This document shows positions 6,112-62,141 of a stretch of DNA of 64,000 nucleotides, piece by piece. The notes below the pieces were generated by a model. It saw only the letters and a program-made list of their open reading frames with translations. It made no database searches and had not been told where the DNA came from. The position numbers were made by a program, and so were the translations under genes. The stretch is taken from positions 744,001 to 808,000 of the forward strand of contig NZ_CP036425.1 of assembly GCF_007747445.1 (NCBI RefSeq), in the 5' to 3' direction. Numbering within the stretch: position 1 is the first letter of the stretch; each line of letters starts with the position of its first letter. This DNA comes from Poriferisphaera corsica. Its GTDB lineage: Bacteria; Planctomycetota; Phycisphaerae; Phycisphaerales; Phycisphaeraceae.

Positions 6112-7257
6112 TTAAAGCTGTCTCTTGCGGCGGGTGAGAAGGGGTATGGCGGTGAGTGAGAATAAGGCAAGTGATGCGGGTTCTGGGACTGAGATGTTGA
6201 TGAACTCGATGGTTTCGCTGTGTGCGTTGGTGACGACGAGTGTGTCATTGATGAAGTCGACGCCATGAACGTTGGCCCAGCCGTGTGCGGAGGCTGCGGT
6301 GAGGTTGCCGGCGATGTCGAGGATGTAGACGGCAGAGTCGTTGAGCGTGATGCCTGTACTGGTTGTAGCGGTTGTGCCGGGGACGAGGGATAGTGCAAAG
6401 AGTGGATCGCTGCCATCAATATTGATAAGAGCGAGGTCGTAGCCGTTATTGGAGTAGTTCGCGTCCGTGCCTGTGAAGGTGAAGATGGTTTGCGTTGCGT
6501 ATGAGTTGGTGTCGCTGTCGTAGGCTGCGTAAGTGAGTGCGCCATTACCTTGTGTGAGGGAGTAGTCGAGATAGGCGGCATTGCCTTGCGAGTCGAAATC
6601 AAGGGCGAGCAGGCCTGTGGGGCGGTCTTGGGTTTTGAGTGATGGTGTGGTTGTATGTGTGACGGCACCTTGATCATCGATGTTGTAGAAGGTGTAGCCC
6701 ATGGAGAAGAATGAAGTCGCTTGGGCGGCAGGGTTGTAGGCGGCGCCGCTTGTGGGTTGATGGCCGACGTTTGAGCCGTCTCCGACGTAAGACCAGTTGA
6801 TGGATTCGGTGGCTGTATTGAAAGATGTGATATATGAATCGGCGTGATCGAATGCATATGGATTGATGGCGTATGCGGCGATGAGGTTGCCGTTGTGGTA
6901 GTCGAGTGAGGTGAGAGGTGAGCCTGCGTTGATGTTGTATTGCATGGCGGTGAGTGAGGCTTGGGGGTTGGTGGTCGCGTTTTCGACTTTGATGATGGAA
7001 GAGAGGTTGGTGGTGGACCAATCATTGTCCCAGCATGCGATGTAGAGGTTTGCTGAGCCGTCGTATGCGACGCGGGCTGGTGTGAAATTTTGTGCACCGG
7101 CTGACCCGCCGTTCCATGCGGTGATGTCGCTGATATTGACACTGGCGTAGACGTTGAAGTTGAGATTGTCGTTGAGGTTCTGATCTTCAATCGCAGCATT
7201 CAGGTTGGATGCTGCAAGTATGCTGAATAATGCGAAGGCGGAAGTGGTGGTTTTCAT
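6112..7257 (-). CDS. PEP-CTERM-anchored beta-propeller-like protein (paralogue B)
   Basis: A 381-aa secreted protein. The ATG at 7257 was chosen because GGAGAGAAAC lies just before it and it opens into a signal peptide ending near LNAA; the longer frame to 7320 has no such support. The C-terminus carries SVPEPASLALFSL, a hydrophobic stretch and TRRKRQL, which is a PEP-CTERM sorting tail. Internal motifs match paralogue A in order: YDGSANLYIACWDNDW, ILDIAGNLTAASAHGWANVHGVDF, NDTLVVTNAHSETIEFINI. Family function is unknown. Location is presumably the outer envelope or extracellular matrix. Confidence 0.87.
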   Translation of the reverse strand: MKTTTSAFALFSILAASNLNAAIEDQNLNDNLNFNVYASVNISDITAWNGGSAGAQNFTPARVAYDGSANLYIACWDNDWSTTNLSSIIKVENATTNPQASLTAMQYNINAGSPLTSLDYHNGNLIAAYAINPYAFDHADSYITSFNTATESINWSYVGDGSNVGHQPTSGAAYNPAAQATSFFSMGYTFYNIDDQGAVTHTTTPSLKTQDRPTGLLALDFDSQGNAAYLDYSLTQGNGALTYAAYDSDTNSYATQTIFTFTGTDANYSNNGYDLALINIDGSDPLFALSLVPGTTATTSTGITLNDSAVYILDIAGNLTAASAHGWANVHGVDFINDTLVVTNAHSETIEFINISVPEPASLALFSLTAIPLLTRRKRQL

Positions 7258-8099
7258 GTTTCTCTCCATGAAGTGATACAGGGGACAGATAGGGGTATGT
7301 GCAGTACAGCTTGAACTCAATTAGATGGGTTGGTACGAAAGGGATGAGATTTTGTAGAGGTCGAATTGGCTGTAACTAATGCAAAATTAATGTCTTTTGA
7401 TCTTTTTCTGTCAGGCTGCCTCAAATATATCCCGTGTGAGAGGATTCGGTATGGCATTTATGATGATTGATTTAACATTTTTGATTAGGTAACAATCGTT
7501 CTTAAGGCTATTATTGCAGTTTAATGTGCTGTAATTAATCGAAAATGTTAAATAAGTTAAATGTGATGGGCAATATGTCTGGAGGCTTAATTTGAGGGCA
7601 TGTCAGAGGAGGTGTTATGGGGTTATTTCGCTGTTTTATGGCTGCTGATTGGAGGTATGTTGACTGATATACGGGCTGATCGGTATACTTTGAACATGCA
7701 AAACGCACAGAGCTTGCAATTTGAAGCATTTTTGAGTGAGTCATCACAAGTCATTGTGGTTGGCGGCTCGCGCACGGTCCTTGTTATCTGAGCGGAGGAC
7801 CCGCATATATACCCTGTCTGAATAAGAGGTTAGATTACGATTCGTTTTGGGAGGAATCGTGTTTGTCGCAACCTCAGGCCTAAAATATGAATGGATACTG
7901 AGTCAACCATGCGATATTCGCATGTTAGGTATGCTTAGTGACTAGAAGTTTGTAAAAAGGCTGAAAAAGCAAGCTCTCCCATCCGAAAAAGAACAAAACG
8001 GTACGAAACTGAATAAAATAGATATCCAGCGGCGGCGATCGGTCAATTAGAGATTGCGGGACAGCTGGAAGTTATAGAGCAACAACAAGGTTTAGAGTC
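7258..8099. other. Long divergent intergenic region upstream of ilvB
   Basis: These 842 bases separate two divergently transcribed genes, so promoters for both should lie here. A perfect 7-bp inverted repeat occurs at 7837-7860 (ACGATTC / GAATCGT). A tiny frame of 16 codons (7617-7667) follows an excellent ribosome site (AGAGGAGGTG). A 63-codon frame at 7600-7791 overlaps it in another phase. Neither is enriched in Leu, Ile or Val codons, so a classical ilv attenuator peptide is not supported. Confidence 0.4.
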
Positions 8100-23520: not shown

Positions 23521-24112
23521 TTGTGACCTGATTATGTCTTGCACCATCGGTGCCGGCCTTTGATTGTTTCCAACTCTTACCTTGGTCATTCTCGGCCGTG
23601 GAGAGTTTGTCAGGCAAAAGATAAATACTCGGCCCCTGTTTTGTATCGGTTGGCCATGGTTTATTGTCGTCGTAGTTTACCCGATCTATTATGCGTCCAG
23701 AACCGTCATGTAGTGTGAGAATTTCATTTGTTTCGGTGGGATTATTGGCAAGGCCTTTGAGGCCACCGTTATTCCATTTTTTGACAGTCATGACTAGAAA
23801 GTCGCCTGGCCACGCCTTTCTGAATTCTTCAATTTGCTGGTCGTCTGGTATCAAAACAATTGCATGATTTGGTGCAATTTCAATCTGTTGTGTAAATGGT
23901 TCACTCTTGCCATCTTCGTCACTTAAATACCAGCCACGTATTGGGACCGTTTCGTCGCCGGTGTTGTAAAGCTCAAGCCATTCTGTACGCGCGGGTACTT
24001 TTTCTCGACTTGCCGGGTTGTACATAATCTCGGTGATCAAAATTTCAGCTTCAATAACGTTTGCGATGAGTACGTTTAGGCATAATACTGTGAAAATTGC
24101 AAGGTATTTCAT
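23462..24112 (-). CDS. Secreted lamin-tail-domain (LTD) protein
   Basis: A 216-aa protein. The ATG at 24112 follows GGAGGC and opens into a signal peptide (MKYLAIFTVLCLNVLIANVI). The mature part is one LTD beta-sandwich: ILITEIMYNPASREKVPART, EWLELYNTGDETVPIRGWYL, SDEDGKSEPFT, and DGSGRIIDRVNYDDNKPWP. LTD domains are common in secreted nucleases and phosphatases and probably help bind DNA or surfaces. Its 3' end overlaps the S1/P1-like gene by 59 bases on the same strand, which suggests that the two products work together. Confidence 0.85.
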   Translation of the reverse strand: MKYLAIFTVLCLNVLIANVIEAEILITEIMYNPASREKVPARTEWLELYNTGDETVPIRGWYLSDEDGKSEPFTQQIEIAPNHAIVLIPDDQQIEEFRKAWPGDFLVMTVKKWNNGGLKGLANNPTETNEILTLHDGSGRIIDRVNYDDNKPWPTDTKQGPSIYLLPDKLSTAENDQGKSWKQSKAGTDGARHNQVTNEYDKQDTGSPGFISKQKP

Positions 24113-55397: not shown

Positions 55398-57908
55398 TTA
55401 GTCATACTTTAATTTTGCTTCGAGGATTCCCATTGCACGTTCAGGCTGCGCCTTCATCTGAATGCGAATCTTCTCTGTAGTAAACGCATGCTGCGCATCG
55501 ACATAATTAAACTGATCCAGCTTCGTTTCATAGCCGCTGGTAATGTAAGTATGCAACGGTTTCCAGCCCCCATTGGCCCAGTATTCCACCGACCAATCAG
55601 CAGGCGCCGCGCACCCACCGTTGTTCTTAATATCATCAAACCAAAACACACCAACACTCCGGATGGGCTTCTTCTCCTTCAACGTTAACACAACCCACTG
55701 GTCCTGACCCTTTTGCGGCCAGCTCGTCCATCGTCTCATCGACGTCTCATGCGATCCATTCGGTGTATCACCATCTCCGATCGCATATACCGTATCTGTC
55801 GCATGTGTATACGACGCCTCTAGCTTCTTGTATTCACCATCAACATTCAAAGGGTTCGAACTCAACGATGCCAACGACTTCTCTCGCGGCATCCACACCG
55901 CCATCGAACTCAATCCGCGGTTGCTCCAAGCGTAATACGGTATCAATCGGACCTTGCGATCTTCCATGCCTTGGCCATCAGCTGTCAAAGCTTGACCACG
56001 CAGATGTGCTTGAATTGTTTCCACCCCTTGCGTGAGGTGTCCAACTTGCGCCTGGCGTTCCTTAATCTTCGGCATGTCTTCAAAATACAAACGTGAAACA
56101 TCAAAACTAAAATCTTGATCCAGCCCCTCCGCGCACATCACCAACGGTCCATGTGTAAACGCAACACGCCCTCGATTCGCTTTCACACGCTCAATCGTTT
56201 CGTTGCTACGCACATCCATCGGCAACTCAAGCGCAACAACATCACCCTTTGACCATTCTCGTTCAATCACCGCGAAGCCGTTTTGCACATTAAAATCCAT
56301 TGACTCGCCATTAATCTTTATCTCAATATCTTTCTCCATCACATCTGCATAATGATACAGCTCGCCCGGCACAAACTGCTTGTTACCAGCCCAAGTCGGG
56401 ATTCGCATCCGTACTGAAAATTTTGCCCCATTGTTCGCGGGGTTCACCGTCAAACAAATCTTGCCATCAAACGGATACGCCGTCTGCTGCTTTACACCAA
56501 CCGTCACGCCACTGATATCTACCGTCGTTTCCGAACTCGCATACAAGCTTAAATACAAATCATCATCATCCACCGCATAAATCATCCCCGATATTTGCGG
56601 GATATATCTCGCCAGATTCGATGGGCAACACGCCGTACCAAACCACGTTGCGCGACCTTTGTGCCCGTGGTTAAACGCTCGCTCACCATCCGTCGATAGC
56701 GGGTTCACATAAAAAAACCGATCCCCTTTCAGATTCATTCCCGCAAGCACGTTATTAAATAACGATACTTCCGCAACATCTAGATACTTCGCTTCCTTCG
56801 TCATCAAGAATAAACGATAGTTCATCATCACGTTTGCAATACCCGCACACGTCTCGTTATAGGTATCATAATTCGGCAACTCATACTGCGGCCCAAACCC
56901 CTCATGCCCATACACAGCTCCCAAACCACCCGTAATATGCATCCGTGTATTGACAATGTCGCCCCAAATCTCCTGTAGCGATGTCTGCAATGACGAGTCC
57001 CCCAGTATCGCGCTCACATCCGCCATACCCGCGTACATATACACCGCTCGTACCGCGTGCCCAACCGCTTCACGCTGATCTCGAACAGGCAGATGCTGCT
57101 GTGCATATTCATCATGATTTAATCCCGCTTCTGAAGGCTTATACGTCACGCCTCGAATATCCAAAAACTTCTTAGCCATATCTAGGTATAAACGCTTCCC
57201 CGTTTCTCGGTACAACTTGACCAGAGCCAGTTCAATTTCCTGATGACCCGGGGCCTGATTCACCGGCTTGCCCCCGTTGTAATCACGATCACCCTCAAAA
57301 AAAACCTTGTTGATATGCTCCGCATTCTTCTCAGATAGTTTCAAGAACTTATCTTTCCCCGTTGCTTGGTAATATGCAATCGCCGCCTCATACATATGCC
57401 CCATGTTGTATAGCTCATGACTATAAATCACAAAACTATATGGCCTGTCACCCATCCCGTCATGAGAATGACGCTTCGTTGCGCCCGTAATGTGTGATGG
57501 ATATAAATACCCGTCTTCAAGCTGCGCCTCGCCAATAATATCAATGATGCGATCCATCTCTGCTTCCAACGCTTTCTCGGGCTTCAGCTTCAATAAATAC
57601 GCCGCGCCTTCCATCACCTTATATAAGTCAGAATCAACAAACGGATGAGGCCGATGCCCAGGCACGTCCTCGCCACGATTAAACTTCGCCGCTGCCTCCA
57701 AATGAGCCACACCAACCTGCGCCTCCTGCATCGAATGCGGCAACAAAACTTCCGCCTGTAGTTTCAATCGCGGTAACCAAAATTCATCTGTCAATCGCAC
57801 TTCATCAAATGCAATTGGCACGATCGGATAATCCGCAGCTCGTAAACTTTCCATCGCAACTAATCCTGACATATAAAAGCCGATCATGAGCAATCCAAAT
57901 CTATACAT
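55398..57908 (-). CDS. GH127 beta-L-arabinofuranosidase with C-terminal carbohydrate-binding-like domain
   Basis: An 836-aa exported enzyme. An (alpha/alpha)6 barrel spans roughly residues 30-450. Active-site residues by comparison with the characterised HypBA1: Glu336 (HEGFGPQYELPN, acid), Glu352 and Cys354 (NETCAG), Cys427 and Cys428 (TACCPSN); one Cys is the nucleophile and the set binds zinc. Beta domains follow (to about 680). The last ~140 residues resemble an F5/8-type C (discoidin) module: RRWTSWPQKGQDQWVVLTLK, SVGVFWFDDIKNNGG. It removes terminal beta-L-arabinofuranose from glycans. A short signal peptide precedes. Transcribed alone. Confidence 0.92.
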   Translation of the reverse strand: MYRFGLLMIGFYMSGLVAMESLRAADYPIVPIAFDEVRLTDEFWLPRLKLQAEVLLPHSMQEAQVGVAHLEAAAKFNRGEDVPGHRPHPFVDSDLYKVMEGAAYLLKLKPEKALEAEMDRIIDIIGEAQLEDGYLYPSHITGATKRHSHDGMGDRPYSFVIYSHELYNMGHMYEAAIAYYQATGKDKFLKLSEKNAEHINKVFFEGDRDYNGGKPVNQAPGHQEIELALVKLYRETGKRLYLDMAKKFLDIRGVTYKPSEAGLNHDEYAQQHLPVRDQREAVGHAVRAVYMYAGMADVSAILGDSSLQTSLQEIWGDIVNTRMHITGGLGAVYGHEGFGPQYELPNYDTYNETCAGIANVMMNYRLFLMTKEAKYLDVAEVSLFNNVLAGMNLKGDRFFYVNPLSTDGERAFNHGHKGRATWFGTACCPSNLARYIPQISGMIYAVDDDDLYLSLYASSETTVDISGVTVGVKQQTAYPFDGKICLTVNPANNGAKFSVRMRIPTWAGNKQFVPGELYHYADVMEKDIEIKINGESMDFNVQNGFAVIEREWSKGDVVALELPMDVRSNETIERVKANRGRVAFTHGPLVMCAEGLDQDFSFDVSRLYFEDMPKIKERQAQVGHLTQGVETIQAHLRGQALTADGQGMEDRKVRLIPYYAWSNRGLSSMAVWMPREKSLASLSSNPLNVDGEYKKLEASYTHATDTVYAIGDGDTPNGSHETSMRRWTSWPQKGQDQWVVLTLKEKKPIRSVGVFWFDDIKNNGGCAAPADWSVEYWANGGWKPLHTYITSGYETKLDQFNYVDAQHAFTTEKIRIQMKAQPERAMGILEAKLKYD

Positions 57909-58366
57909 GAGTTAGAACTCCGATTTAGAGACAGGATTATGAGTCGAATTCAACCCCGAACGGCAAGCAAAACATGCAGCAGATACACACAAGCGAATAC
58001 CACTGCTATGAATCGGAAATGATGAAATAACACCCACCATTCGTAAAATAGCTATCTTAATTTCAACACATGCTGAGGTTCCATAGTCACACTGCAACAC
58101 TTAATACCACTTCATGAAATATATCCGCTCCGCAGCTGAATCTTGATCAGCGACGGCGAAATCAGAATCTTACTTATATACTTGTTTTTTCGGGTTGGCT
58201 TTGTGATTTCACTTCCAGCTTGCGCTATAACAAAGTGACCGACGTTTGACCGAGGTCCGGCAGAGTGGTAATTTGACCACTCTTTGACGGGGTCTGTATC
58301 TGTACGCAACCCCCGATACATTCATTCACCCAATTTCTCCACGAATCGGAAGAAAGAAGGTAAGTC
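57909..58366. other. Divergent gap between GH127 and the aminotransferase
   Basis: These 458 bases must hold two promoters. A perfect 8-bp inverted repeat (AGAGTGGT at 58262-58269, ACCACTCT at 58276-58283) followed by TTTGACGG lies about 85 bases upstream of the aminotransferase start. It could be an operator or a weak attenuator. Nothing else is evident. Confidence 0.4.
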
Positions 58367-59542
58367 ATGACTGCTACAGAACTTAAGCAGCGTCTTTTGA
58401 CTCCCGGCCCAACCGCCGTCCCTGCAGAAGTCCTCGCCGAATTGGCCAAGCCAATCATCCACCACCGCACCAAAGAGTTTCAGGCTATCTTCGCCGAACT
58501 CTCCGCACTTCTGCAAAAAGTCTTCAAAACCGAAGGCCCCGTCCTCTCTATCGCCGGCTCAGGCACCACCGCTTTTGAAGCCGCGCAAGTTTGCCTCGTA
58601 AAACCAAATTCCAAAGTCATCACCTGTGCAGGTGGTAAGTTCGGCGAGCGCTGGCAGGACGTTTACGATGTTTACAGCAAATTCCTGAACATCGAACAGA
58701 TCAAAATCAATTTCGATTGGGGCAAAGCCGCTCCCGTCGATCAGATCAAAAAAGCACTCGACGAAAACCCAGACGTCTCCGTCATCACCATCTGCCACAG
58801 CGATACATCAACCGCGACCGCGAGTGATGTTAAAGCGATCGCAGCTTTGGCACAGAAGACCGACGCGCTGTTGCTCGTCGACGGCATCACCTCCGTTGGC
58901 GCATTCGAATGTGAAATGGATAACTGGGGCATTGATGCTTTAGTGACCGGTTCGCAAAAAGCGATGATGTTGCCGCCAGGTTTGGGTTACGTTGGTTTAG
59001 GCAAACGTGCACTGAAGCGTTTGGACGAAATCGAACACGATATCCCTGCATACAACTTGGATCTGCGTAAGTGGGTTGCAAGTCATGCGAAGAATGATGT
59101 GCCGTTCACGCCGCCGGTCGCTTTGATCCGCGGTCAGAAGGTTGCCTGTGAGTTGATTTTGAAGGATGGCCTTGACGCGAAGATCGCTGAAACCAAGAAG
59201 TTGGCAAAAGCATCACGCGAAGCGTTTGTTGCGATGGGTTTAGAACTCATCAGCGACAGCCCATCTGAATCAGTGACAGGTGTTTATTACCCTGAAGGGG
59301 TTGTTGATGGCAAATTCCGTGCGGGTTTGCGTGATAATCATGGGATTCACATTGCGGGTGGTCAGAGCGGCCGCGGCGCGAAGTGGAAGGGTAAGATTTT
59401 CCGGATTTCACACATGGGTTATGTTGATTTTGCAGACACGCTGGCATGTTTTGCGGCGATGGAAGTTGAATTAGCGGCACAGGGCTTTGCGATAGAGCAG
59501 GGCGTTGGTGTGACGGCGTTTGAAGCGGCTTACAATGCGTAA
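58367..59542 (+). CDS. Class V aminotransferase (alanine/serine-glyoxylate aminotransferase-like)
   Basis: A 391-aa PLP enzyme of the small-aminotransferase group that includes alanine- and serine-glyoxylate aminotransferases and SerC-like relatives. Motifs: LLTPGPTAVPAEVL, IAGSGTTAFEAA (phosphate binding), ICHSDTSTAT, LLVDGITSVGAFE (Asp for the PLP pyridine), VTGSQKAMMLPPG with PLP-binding Lys198, and FRISHMGYVD near the end. Product length and frame are intact. The striking feature is composition: codons end mainly in C up to about 58.8 kb and in G or T after about 58.95 kb, with no break in the protein. A strong terminator follows. Confidence 0.93.
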   Translation: MTATELKQRLLTPGPTAVPAEVLAELAKPIIHHRTKEFQAIFAELSALLQKVFKTEGPVLSIAGSGTTAFEAAQVCLVKPNSKVITCAGGKFGERWQDVYDVYSKFLNIEQIKINFDWGKAAPVDQIKKALDENPDVSVITICHSDTSTATASDVKAIAALAQKTDALLLVDGITSVGAFECEMDNWGIDALVTGSQKAMMLPPGLGYVGLGKRALKRLDEIEHDIPAYNLDLRKWVASHAKNDVPFTPPVALIRGQKVACELILKDGLDAKIAETKKLAKASREAFVAMGLELISDSPSESVTGVYYPEGVVDGKFRAGLRDNHGIHIAGGQSGRGAKWKGKIFRISHMGYVDFADTLACFAAMEVELAAQGFAIEQGVGVTAFEAAYNA

Positions 59543-59562
59543 GTTTGAATAAAAACAAGATG

Positions 59563-59597
59563 AAAAACCGCGATGTATTTTACATCGCGGTTTTTTT
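59563..59597 (+). terminator. Rho-independent terminator after the aminotransferase
   Basis: Stem AAAACCGCGATGTA / TACATCGCGGTTTT with a tiny loop and a T run. The T run merges with the first copy of the motif at 59595. Confidence 0.92.
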
Positions 59598-59908
59598 GTG
59601 CGCACGTTTTGATTGGAAGTCGAAAATTTGAGGTGTGAAATATGGGTTGAAAAAAAAGTGGCTATGCGCGGATTAGACGGGTTGATGATTGGGATTGTGA
59701 AATCGCATGTGAAAAATAAGGGGTTATGAAAAATGTGGGCTGGGTTTGTGCGCACGGTTTTTCGATTTTCGTGATTTTCCCTTATGGTGCGGTGATTGAA
59801 AAGCGCGAGAAATGGGAAGAAAGTCGTTGGTTTTGATTGAAAATGAGATGAAAAGTGCGGGAATTGTGTGTGTTTGATAGGGGGGGATCGGATTTGTGCG
59901 CGCGTTTT
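59595..59908. repeat. Three-copy TTTGTGCGC motif array in a convergent gap
   Basis: TTTGTGCGCACGTTTT at 59595-59610, TTTGTGCGCACGGTTTTT at 59745-59762 and TTTGTGCGCGCGTTTT at 59893-59908. The copies start 150 and 148 bases apart. The intervening sequence is poor in C on the plus strand and shows no gene. It lies between two terminators and about 600 bases from the skew switch. Confidence 0.6.
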
Positions 59909-59947
59909 GTTTTGTGAGCAATTTGGTATGGGTTTTGTGGGAGATTG

Positions 59948-59977
59948 AAAAGACGCAGCGAGATTGCTGCGTCTTTT
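59948..59977. terminator. Bidirectional terminator at the end of the LamG protein gene
   Basis: Stem AAAAGACGCAGC / GCTGCGTCTTTT, loop GAGATT, T runs on both strands; 35 bases past the minus-strand stop codon. Confidence 0.88.
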
Positions 59978-60011
59978 TGTAGGGAGATTGTGATCTATTT
60001 TTTGAATGGGG

Positions 60012-62141
60012 TTATTTTGTGAATGTGAAGACGCGGTGGCTGTTGAAGAGGTCGAGTGTGCTGAGCAGTTTGCCGTCTTCTTGGAGGAAGAGGGTTGTGA
60101 AGTATGAGGTGTTGGAGCCATCGGATGTGTTGCCGGGGTGGATGTTGGCGGGCGAGGACCAGGTGTTGAAGTTATCAGTTGAGTAGGTGAATTGGAGTTG
60201 GCCACGTCTGTGGTGTACGGGTTGATAGGAGAAATCGGCGGGCCAATCGGATGAATTGATGGCCTCATCGGTGAGGAAGGCAACGACGGCGGGGCCGGCG
60301 TTGTTGCCGAGTCTGGCGATGTGTGGGTTGTATGCGTTGTAGGGTCGGCCGAGGTTATCGAGTTTTGTCGGTTGATAGATGATGAATCGATTGTCGTTGT
60401 TCCAATTGTCATTCCAGTCGTTATTGGTTTGTCCGCCGTTGTAGCCGATGATGCCGCGGATGACGTTGTTGTAGGCGATTGTGTTGTGGTGGGTTGTATC
60501 GTTGATACGTTTTTTGAAGGTGTATTCGTTGATGCTTTCGAAAGCGAGTAGGAGGGTGTCGTTGCCGTTGTTGCGTGGATCTTTGCGGAGTGTGGTGACG
60601 GTGGGCATGCCGTCACGTGAGAGTTGGTTGTTTGGGGCTCGGGCGGCGATAATGCGGAAGCTTGAAGGGGTGAGGTATGTGCTGCTGATGGTGAACGTTT
60701 TCATGACGATGTGTTGATCGTTTGAGTTGGGCAATTCATAGTCGTAATAGACTTGGAGTGTGTTGTTGGATAGCTGATGGATGAAGGGTGAGCCGAGGAA
60801 TTTGTTGGTGGCGTTTGAGTCGATGCTTGTTGCGAAGTGGTGATAGGTTGGTGTGGTGTTGAGGTTGTCGATGCGTATGAGATTGATGGTGAACTCGGAT
60901 TGGTTATTGTCGGTTTGTGGGTTGTTATCGGGGTCAGTGGTTTTTTTTGTGCCATGCGCGATGAGGATGCAGGGGTTGGTTTCGTTGGGGAGGGTTCCGG
61001 CCCAGAGAGCGATGTCGTGGAATACGCTGTTATCGGGGAGGAAGTCGATGATGATTTTTTCGCTCCATGTTTGGCCGTCGGTGCTTTGGAGGAGTTGGAG
61101 TCTTGAGTTATTGTTTGGGTATACGGGGCCGATGTTTTTAGCGCCGTAGTATGTGCTGCCGAGTTTGACGATGGAGCGTTGGGGTGCGAGCCCTTCGTTG
61201 GTCGCGGTGTCGGGGAGTCGGGGGTTGATCCATGAGGTGTCGGTAAAGGCGGTGTCGGCTTTTTGTAGCCATTGGGATTGAGGGAGGACGGCGTTTGAGA
61301 TTCTGACTTCATCGATGAGGCCTTTGGCGTAGTCGGTGTGAATGCCGTTGTAGAGGCCGCGTCCGACCGTCCAGCCGCCGGGATGCCAAAGGTTTGTGCC
61401 GATTTTTGATCCGATGTAGATGTTGGAGTTTGAGCTGCTGTATGTGGTGGATGCGATGGCGGTGTATTCTTGGTTGTCATCGTCGTAGAGAAAAAGTTCG
61501 AGTTTGCTGCCATCGTTTGTGGCGACGAGGTGATACCATTTTGAGGTTGTGACGTAGTTTGCGGCGGTTTGTGCTACGTGTGCGTTGCCATCGTGGTCGA
61601 CGAATAGGATTTTGAAACGGTTGTCGTATGTAATTTGGAGGTAGAGTGAGGCGAGCATGTTTGTGGTGCTGAGTTGGGCGTCTCGGCCGACGATGGTGCG
61701 GAATTGGTTGTTGAGTAGAGGCTTGTAGCTTGCTTCGATGGTGAAGTTGGAGAAATCGGCGGTTTCGATGTCGGCGCCTGAGGGGTTTGAGGTGGTGGAT
61801 TTGGTGAAGAGTTTGGGTTTGATGCCGTTGTTTTTGATGGCGTTGTTGTTGCGTTGTGAGGATTGAGGGACTTTACTGTGGTCGGTATCGGCGTCGTATT
61901 TCATGGCTTCGTCTGAGCCGGGCCATGAGGAAAGGTGGTTGCCGTTGCCGGACTCGTCGTAGACGACGGCGGTGAAGTCGTATGCAGTGGACGGTTGTGG
62001 GAGCGTGTTGTTGGTGGTGCCGTCTTCGAAACGCCAATAGGCGATAACGCTATCGGGGGTGTATGATTCGGCGAATAATCTGGTTTGCAAATATGTAGAT
62101 AATATAAGGAAAGGTATGATGCCAATTATTAAGCGTTTCAT
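60012..62141 (-). CDS. Secreted LamG-domain plus beta-propeller (sialidase/GH93-like) protein
   Basis: A 709-aa exported protein. A signal peptide (to about residue 24) precedes a LamG/concanavalin-like domain (about 30-290): SVIAYWRFEDGTTNN, FTIEASYKPLLNNQFRTIVG, WYHLVATNDGSKLELFLYDD, GLIDEVRISNAVLP. The rest is a propeller resembling sialidase and exo-arabinanase folds: LQLLQSTDGQTWSEK, NNQLSRDGMPTVTTL, DTLLLAFESINEY, LQFTYSTDNFNTWSSP. Activity is unproven, but the RDGMPTVT motif and neighbouring GH43 and GH127 genes make an arabinan or related glycan substrate plausible. AAGGA precedes the ATG. It is very rich in Asn, Thr and Ser. Confidence 0.8.
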   Translation of the reverse strand: MKRLIIGIIPFLILSTYLQTRLFAESYTPDSVIAYWRFEDGTTNNTLPQPSTAYDFTAVVYDESGNGNHLSSWPGSDEAMKYDADTDHSKVPQSSQRNNNAIKNNGIKPKLFTKSTTSNPSGADIETADFSNFTIEASYKPLLNNQFRTIVGRDAQLSTTNMLASLYLQITYDNRFKILFVDHDGNAHVAQTAANYVTTSKWYHLVATNDGSKLELFLYDDDNQEYTAIASTTYSSSNSNIYIGSKIGTNLWHPGGWTVGRGLYNGIHTDYAKGLIDEVRISNAVLPQSQWLQKADTAFTDTSWINPRLPDTATNEGLAPQRSIVKLGSTYYGAKNIGPVYPNNNSRLQLLQSTDGQTWSEKIIIDFLPDNSVFHDIALWAGTLPNETNPCILIAHGTKKTTDPDNNPQTDNNQSEFTINLIRIDNLNTTPTYHHFATSIDSNATNKFLGSPFIHQLSNNTLQVYYDYELPNSNDQHIVMKTFTISSTYLTPSSFRIIAARAPNNQLSRDGMPTVTTLRKDPRNNGNDTLLLAFESINEYTFKKRINDTTHHNTIAYNNVIRGIIGYNGGQTNNDWNDNWNNDNRFIIYQPTKLDNLGRPYNAYNPHIARLGNNAGPAVVAFLTDEAINSSDWPADFSYQPVHHRRGQLQFTYSTDNFNTWSSPANIHPGNTSDGSNTSYFTTLFLQEDGKLLSTLDLFNSHRVFTFTK

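Follow-up and report, generated by a model that had tools for sequence, protein, structure and literature searches.

Many candidate replication origins on a bacterial chromosome, suggested by recurrent skew jumps beside a short DNA element in Poriferisphaera corsica

What does it mean that a single intact gene changes from C-rich to G-rich within its own length? The gene in question lies in a 64,000-bp stretch (referred to below as the window) corresponding to bases 744,001–808,000 of the single-contig, 4,291,168-bp genome of Poriferisphaera corsica KS4 (CP036425; PMC7783415). It is a 391-residue ORF on the + strand (window 58367–59542) that encodes a class-V aminotransferase (Pfam Aminotran_5, E = 1.5e-19). 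A preliminary description, made from the sequence alone, drew attention to an abrupt switch in strand composition within this gene and proposed a replication origin signature, or alternatively a recombination junction between two homologous genes that joined inverted segments, or a local mutational boundary. The analysis below indicates that the flip is one of 33 such flips in the 1.288 Mb read closely, each near a copy or partial copy of one short DNA element, which suggests that this bacterium starts copying its chromosome at many places, as animals and yeasts do, instead of at a single one.

The observation itself was confirmed. The four base counts given in the preliminary description are exact (58501–58560, 10 G and 24 C; 58741–58800, 9 G and 21 C; 58981–59040, 18 G and 10 C; 59041–59100, 16 G and 11 C). 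The third-position skew of the gene in consecutive sixths is −0.54, −0.51, −0.43, +0.30, +0.10 and +0.37, and the largest third-position step inside the gene, 0.81, was reached in 0 of 2000 codon shuffles. This statistic places the step at 59375, whereas the likelihood change point of all bases within ±5 kb is at 58906 (support 58816–58916) and the minimum of the cumulative skew is at 58819. The flip is not local. Skew declines from about +0.5 at the left end of the window to zero near 24–25 kb and on to about −0.5 near 54 kb (per-kb values of −0.17 to −0.49 from 30 to 58 kb), and then jumps to between +0.36 and +0.51 from 59 to 64 kb. Three features could not be seen in the preliminary description, namely the gradual crossing from + to − near 24–25 kb, the same jump elsewhere in the genome, and a repeated non-coding element 0.7–1.0 kb to the right of the flip.

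Sixty stretches sampled along the genome, sparsely beyond 1.07 Mb, show strong skew of both signs, although it is weak in some (e.g. near 2.10 and 2.70 Mb). A contiguous block of 888 kb that includes the window shows a regular sawtooth, with 22 upward jumps at a threshold of 0.35 between adjacent 4-kb windows, a median of 41 kb apart, against eight downward steps. In ramp fits, 21 of the 22 upward jumps take 4 kb or less, and 21 of 22 could be placed to within 450 bases from sequence alone. Of the eight downward steps, five take 6–20 kb, while three are as sharp as jumps (2 kb or less; genome positions 90997, 275598 and 679994) and could be real inversion joints; the last of these (+0.47 to −0.06 in about 1 kb) is near where the sister species has an extra element. 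A second contiguous block of 400 kb on the other arm (3.66–4.06 Mb) has 11 upward and five downward steps. Rescaled between neighboring jumps, the mean profile runs from +0.42 through zero to between −0.2 and −0.3 in the first block, and from +0.25 to about −0.4 in the second. The jump thresholds (0.35 over 4 kb; 0.45 over 2.5 kb for the 10-kb stretches described below) were chosen by hand.

The asymmetry does not mainly follow transcription. Genes were called with a crude ORF caller (582 genes, 75% of the DNA), and third-position skew on the + strand was compared for + and − genes by distance from the nearest jump. The sign is the same in 11 of 12 distance bins, with values for + and − genes of −0.53 and −0.49 at 5–10 kb left of a jump, +0.70 and +0.77 at 2–5 kb right, and +0.68 and +0.72 at 5–10 kb right; DNA outside called genes follows (−0.26, +0.44), and TA skew behaves alike. 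The signs also agree on both sides of jumps in the other arm and in the sister species. Gene strand nevertheless has some effect, since close to the left of jumps (0–2 kb) − genes are less skewed than + genes (−0.22 against −0.57; −0.22 against −0.52 in the sister), and at 20–25 kb left the signs differ (+0.11, −0.16). Genes of P. corsica lean to co-orientation with the inferred forks (173 of 302 on the − strand left of jumps and 195 of 293 on the + strand right of jumps; Fisher p = 7e-9), but this is absent left of jumps in the right arm taken alone (103+/108−) and absent in the sister segment (60+/59− left, 49+/67− right), and where seen it is partly confounded with the arms.

The two arms lean in opposite directions. 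Mean skew left and right of a jump is −0.22 and +0.42 in the first block (right arm), and −0.41 and +0.27 in the second (left arm). When the left and right values are summed jump by jump, 19 of 22 sums are positive in the first block and nine of 11 are negative in the second. This is what local origins plus forks from a main oriC near position 0 would give, although whole-genome samples agree only weakly (+0.070 for 37 stretches against −0.070 for 23, p = 0.046). A stretch that looks like a classical oriC lies at genome 6.8–7.45 kb, with two DnaA boxes (TTATNCACA), three TTACCGACA words and an AT-rich run. It is located about 5.4 kb beyond the end of dnaA rather than next to it, between a weak element hit at 6450–6571 and one of the strongest skew jumps, at 7858.

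K-mers enriched within 800 bp of the 22 right-arm jumps gave one clear word family, TTTGTGCGC. In the window, three copies of this box are present on the + strand at 59595–59603, 59745–59753 and 59893–59901, separated by 150 and 148 bp. They lie in the non-coding interval 59543–60011, between the aminotransferase gene and a − strand gene for a LamG-domain protein (60012–62141); overlapping ORFs on the − strand were judged spurious. This interval is the candidate origin element, oriented +, and comprises two units detected with nhmmer, at 59587–59732 (E = 1.6e-6) and 59741–59906 (E = 2.4e-22). The second unit also matches a sequence model (R1) with E = 6.7e-22 for the whole genome, although it is one of the 17 sequences from which R1 was built. 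Of 28 strong elements, 22 have two or more exact boxes on the same strand and ten have three or more; 17 of 32 successive spacings are 147–150 bp, and the spacer is partly conserved. Eleven of 11 right-arm element cores overlap no called gene. Two elements, at 146615 and 3030792, share 74 of 80 compared bases (counted by eye) although they are 2.9 Mb apart on the record, which hints at copying of elements within the genome.

An iterated profile of the element found 55 hits at E ≤ 10 in the 1.288 Mb, 54 of them within 3.5 kb of a jump. All 33 jumps have a hit of this lax grade within 3.5 kb, but only 24 of 33 have one at E < 0.01. The lone hit away from a jump (window 23673–23749, E = 2.3) lies at the zero crossing of skew and is perhaps a decayed element or a chance match. 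Since the element was found from right-arm jumps and the main profile was iterated on both arms, only three tests are independent, namely the held-out arm, the scattered stretches, and the sister species described below. A model from the right arm only, scanned over the left arm, gave 21 of 21 hits (E ≤ 10) within 2 kb of a jump, with 11 of 11 jumps hit; 0 of 2000 circular shifts equaled this (at most 10 of 21), and the reversed sequence gave no hits. In 35 scattered 10-kb stretches, five of six with a jump hold a hit at E ≤ 1, compared to 0 of 29 without; the sixth has an R1 match 3.1 kb from its jump, just outside the stretch.

The orientation of the element predicts the side on which the jump lies in 26 of 28 cases: 12 of 13 + elements have it on the left and 14 of 15 − elements on the right, with a median offset of about 1.05 kb. 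The element at 146.7 kb, which is 3.1 kb from its jump and on the wrong side, was kept in the counts as a miss. The anchored mean profile of the 28 elements crosses zero about 1.3 kb 5′ of the element. No clear AT-rich unwinding region shows at the inferred start point, where GC content is about 0.49 with no dip at the jump; it falls only to 0.45 at the element. A search for a shared motif 0.3–2.2 kb 5′ of the element, around the inferred start point, gave only a weak lead (CACTTTG, nine copies against 0.8 expected, p = 2e-7 among 14,362 words), while on the 3′ side (0.3–2.0 kb) TG-rich words such as GTGTGTG are enriched (46 against 8 expected, in ten of 28 windows). The element has no match among Rfam families (E ≤ 1; window 57900–60600) and none among phage or plasmid records (1e-5; window 59540–60012) in a database from which records near this genome may be left out.

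The sister species, P. heterotrophicis ZRK32 (5,234,020 bp; PMC10945688), has the same system. A 400-kb block (3.44–3.84 Mb) has 15 upward and nine downward jumps, more densely spaced than in P. corsica (median 26 kb). The P. corsica model gives 24 hits at E ≤ 10, of which 23 are within 3 kb of an upward jump; 12 of the 15 jumps are hit and three (3452396, 3602571 and 3820200) are not. The orthologue of the flagged gene is 93% identical but has negative third-position skew in all six sixths, so that the absence of a composition change in a close relative, which the preliminary description had named as evidence against its reading, is found in part. In the sister the flip lies 5 kb further on, at 3,625.0 kb, 1.2 kb before an element at 3626217 that still adjoins the orthologue of the LamG gene. 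The flip therefore follows the element and not the gene, and the aminotransferase gene is not thought to be part of the mechanism. Eight more distant orthologues (60–70% identical) have patchy third-position skew of varied sign and no comparable one-way flip.

Elements also differ between the two species. Of 12 sister elements examined, eight have syntenic anchors in the P. corsica DNA analyzed; five of these have an element at or within about 4 kb of the matching place and three do not. At those three sites P. corsica has no up-step (largest 0.16), and a P. corsica element at 739.5 kb found only in this species has no sister jump within 13 kb of the flanking anchors. In these four cases jumps go with elements, not with genes.

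Samples of 40–120 kb from four other genomes of the family or order show no sawtooth and weak skew (2-kb values within ±0.16). The exact box pair occurs in two of 51 family genomes, both of this genus, with 22 and 56 copies. Among 298 class genomes it occurs in three, P. corsica and two with a single copy each, where the reversed control also hit two genomes once each. The R1 model gives at least 96 matches in P. corsica, at least 145 in the sister and none in four other family genomes (E ≤ 0.1, with at most 150 candidates scored per genome). Scaling of 33 jumps in 1.288 Mb gives about 110 in P. corsica, and 15 in 400 kb gives about 200 in the sister.

The interpretation in the preliminary description is thus partly supported: the origin signature holds in kind, but the site is one of many and not the origin. 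The recombination-junction or inversion reading is not supported, whereas a local mutational boundary is true as far as it goes, although the effect is bidirectional, long-range and tied to an element. The best explanation, held with fair confidence, is that the jump (58816–58916) marks a sequence-specified bidirectional replication origin, one of many on this chromosome. What the sequence analysis establishes is the sawtooth with its gradual fall to the midpoint between neighboring jumps, its general independence of gene strand, the oriented non-coding element beside jumps, the rule of orientation, and the joint turnover of elements and jumps between species. The rest is inferred from sequence alone: that an unidentified initiator binds the boxes and opens the DNA, that DNA synthesis initiates there with two forks leaving from a point about 1 kb 5′ of the element, and that strand-asymmetric mutation writes the average fork direction into the sequence. 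In this view, the negative-skew half of the domain (24001–58900) would be a leftward-fork zone and the crossing near 24–25 kb an average termination zone, termination not being fixed, hence the ramps; forks from a dominant oriC near 7 kb that also run through would account for the opposite lean of the arms. If the largest 2-kb skews seen (+0.67, −0.62) mean one-way forks, a mean jump of 0.64–0.68 implies that each origin acts in about half of replication rounds, averaged over evolution, but this number is a rough inference.

A classical DnaA-type oriC is not supported as the shared feature. Ordinary DnaA boxes TTATNCACA are not clearly enriched at jumps (four of 24 such words within 2 kb of one of the 22 jumps, 2.4 expected), and two of these words lie near 7.0 kb, where the one classical candidate is. 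Both DnaA proteins of P. corsica remain candidates for the initiator, with TTTGTGCGC and TTATCCACA as the words on which they might be compared. The second DnaA (genome 230 kb) has RKTHSTV in the DNA-binding helix where the first has GRDHTTV, and the box read on the other strand, GCGCACAAA, holds the CACA of a DnaA box. However, 45 of 51 family genomes have two or more DnaA matches, some of them partial, and a second DnaA therefore cannot alone explain the genus. A short ORF (117 residues; genome 2124602–2124784) has a below-cut-off match to the DnaA C-terminal domain and is not matched in the sister.

Other explanations are less likely. The elements might be recombination or DNA-break hot spots (Chi-like or nuclease-loading sites), with long-tract repair synthesis or single-stranded DNA spreading some 20 kb each way writing the asymmetry. 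An oriented element with an offset of about 1 kb would also suit an enzyme loaded at a site, and the present evidence is of sequence rather than of replication. This reading is nevertheless considered unlikely, since the sign matches the leading-strand G excess of the inferred replichores (weakly so in the whole-genome samples), the arms mirror each other, and the mean ramp reaches zero about half-way to the next jump in blocks of different spacing, which converging forks explain and fixed-length tracts do not. Bidirectional promoters driving long outward transcripts are very unlikely. The sign of the skew would fit non-template deamination, and gene strand has a small effect left of jumps, but + and − genes agree in sign in 11 of 12 bins, uninterrupted transcription over 20 kb through opposed genes would be needed, and the jump lies about 1 kb from the element, not in it. 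RNA-seq data are deposited for the sister species according to PMC10945688.

Inversions flip skew, and the three sharp downward steps might be read in this way. However, inversions give equally sharp steps in both directions, whereas 4-kb changes above +0.4 outnumber those below −0.4 (41 to 4 and 21 to 3 in the two blocks, and 24 to 10), most declines are gradual, nearly every element hit sits near an up-step, and the gene is intact; the shuffling of a normal two-replichore chromosome by many inversions is the least likely reading. It is also very unlikely that the elements are origins of the past and the skew a fossil, with only the oriC near 7 kb firing today. Skew does integrate over evolutionary time and the oriC-like stretch exists, but elements that differ between the two species already match the presence or absence of jumps, and the box letters are kept, which suggests current selection.

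The broadest reading, considered probable though somewhat less secure, is that Poriferisphaera replicates its chromosome from roughly 100 to 200 discrete, sequence-specified, bidirectional origins, a eukaryote-like replication program in a bacterium. It would have arisen near one genus, would use a new oriented origin element (TTTGTGCGC boxes about 149 bp apart) and probably a non-standard or altered initiator, and would have gained and lost origins between two sister species. A 2023 review states that replication initiation in all bacteria is restricted to a single origin per chromosome (PMC10331603). Among the titles and starts of abstracts listed in literature searches, which were partial and covered neither preprints nor most subscription journals, none reports many origins in a bacterial chromosome; GC skew does not occur in the main text of the papers on the two species, although one occurrence is counted in the full text of PMC10945688. 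If this reading holds, the rule has an exception in a cultured sponge isolate with a sequenced sister species, and the long-standing question of why bacteria keep one origin, and how a lineage could leave that state, becomes testable.

The sawtooth has the shape of the skew N-domains of the human genome (PMC3320577), in which abrupt upward jumps at putative origins border linearly declining segments with a sign change mid-domain, read as average fork polarity. Human domains are megabase-sized, however, while the medians here are 41, 34 and 26 kb, in a bacterium, with a sequence element beside the jumps. A bacterial oriC with DnaA boxes shares the sharp − to + switch and the repeated short boxes in a non-coding stretch, but there is one per chromosome (PMC10331603), whereas many are inferred here, and the box is TTTGTGCGC. 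Several origins also occur on archaeal chromosomes, e.g. three active origins in Haloferax mediterranei (PMC4595724), compared to the dozens of candidates counted and about 110 estimated here, in a bacterium. In SkewDB (PMC8941118), a Salmonella chromosome shows skew with several peaks, for which multiple origins are named as one possibility and inversions or assembly problems as others, with no repeated element tied to the peaks in the text consulted. Finally, yeast ARS origins are likewise short, consensus-driven and spaced every few tens of kb, and differ in sequence, domain of life and expected machinery.
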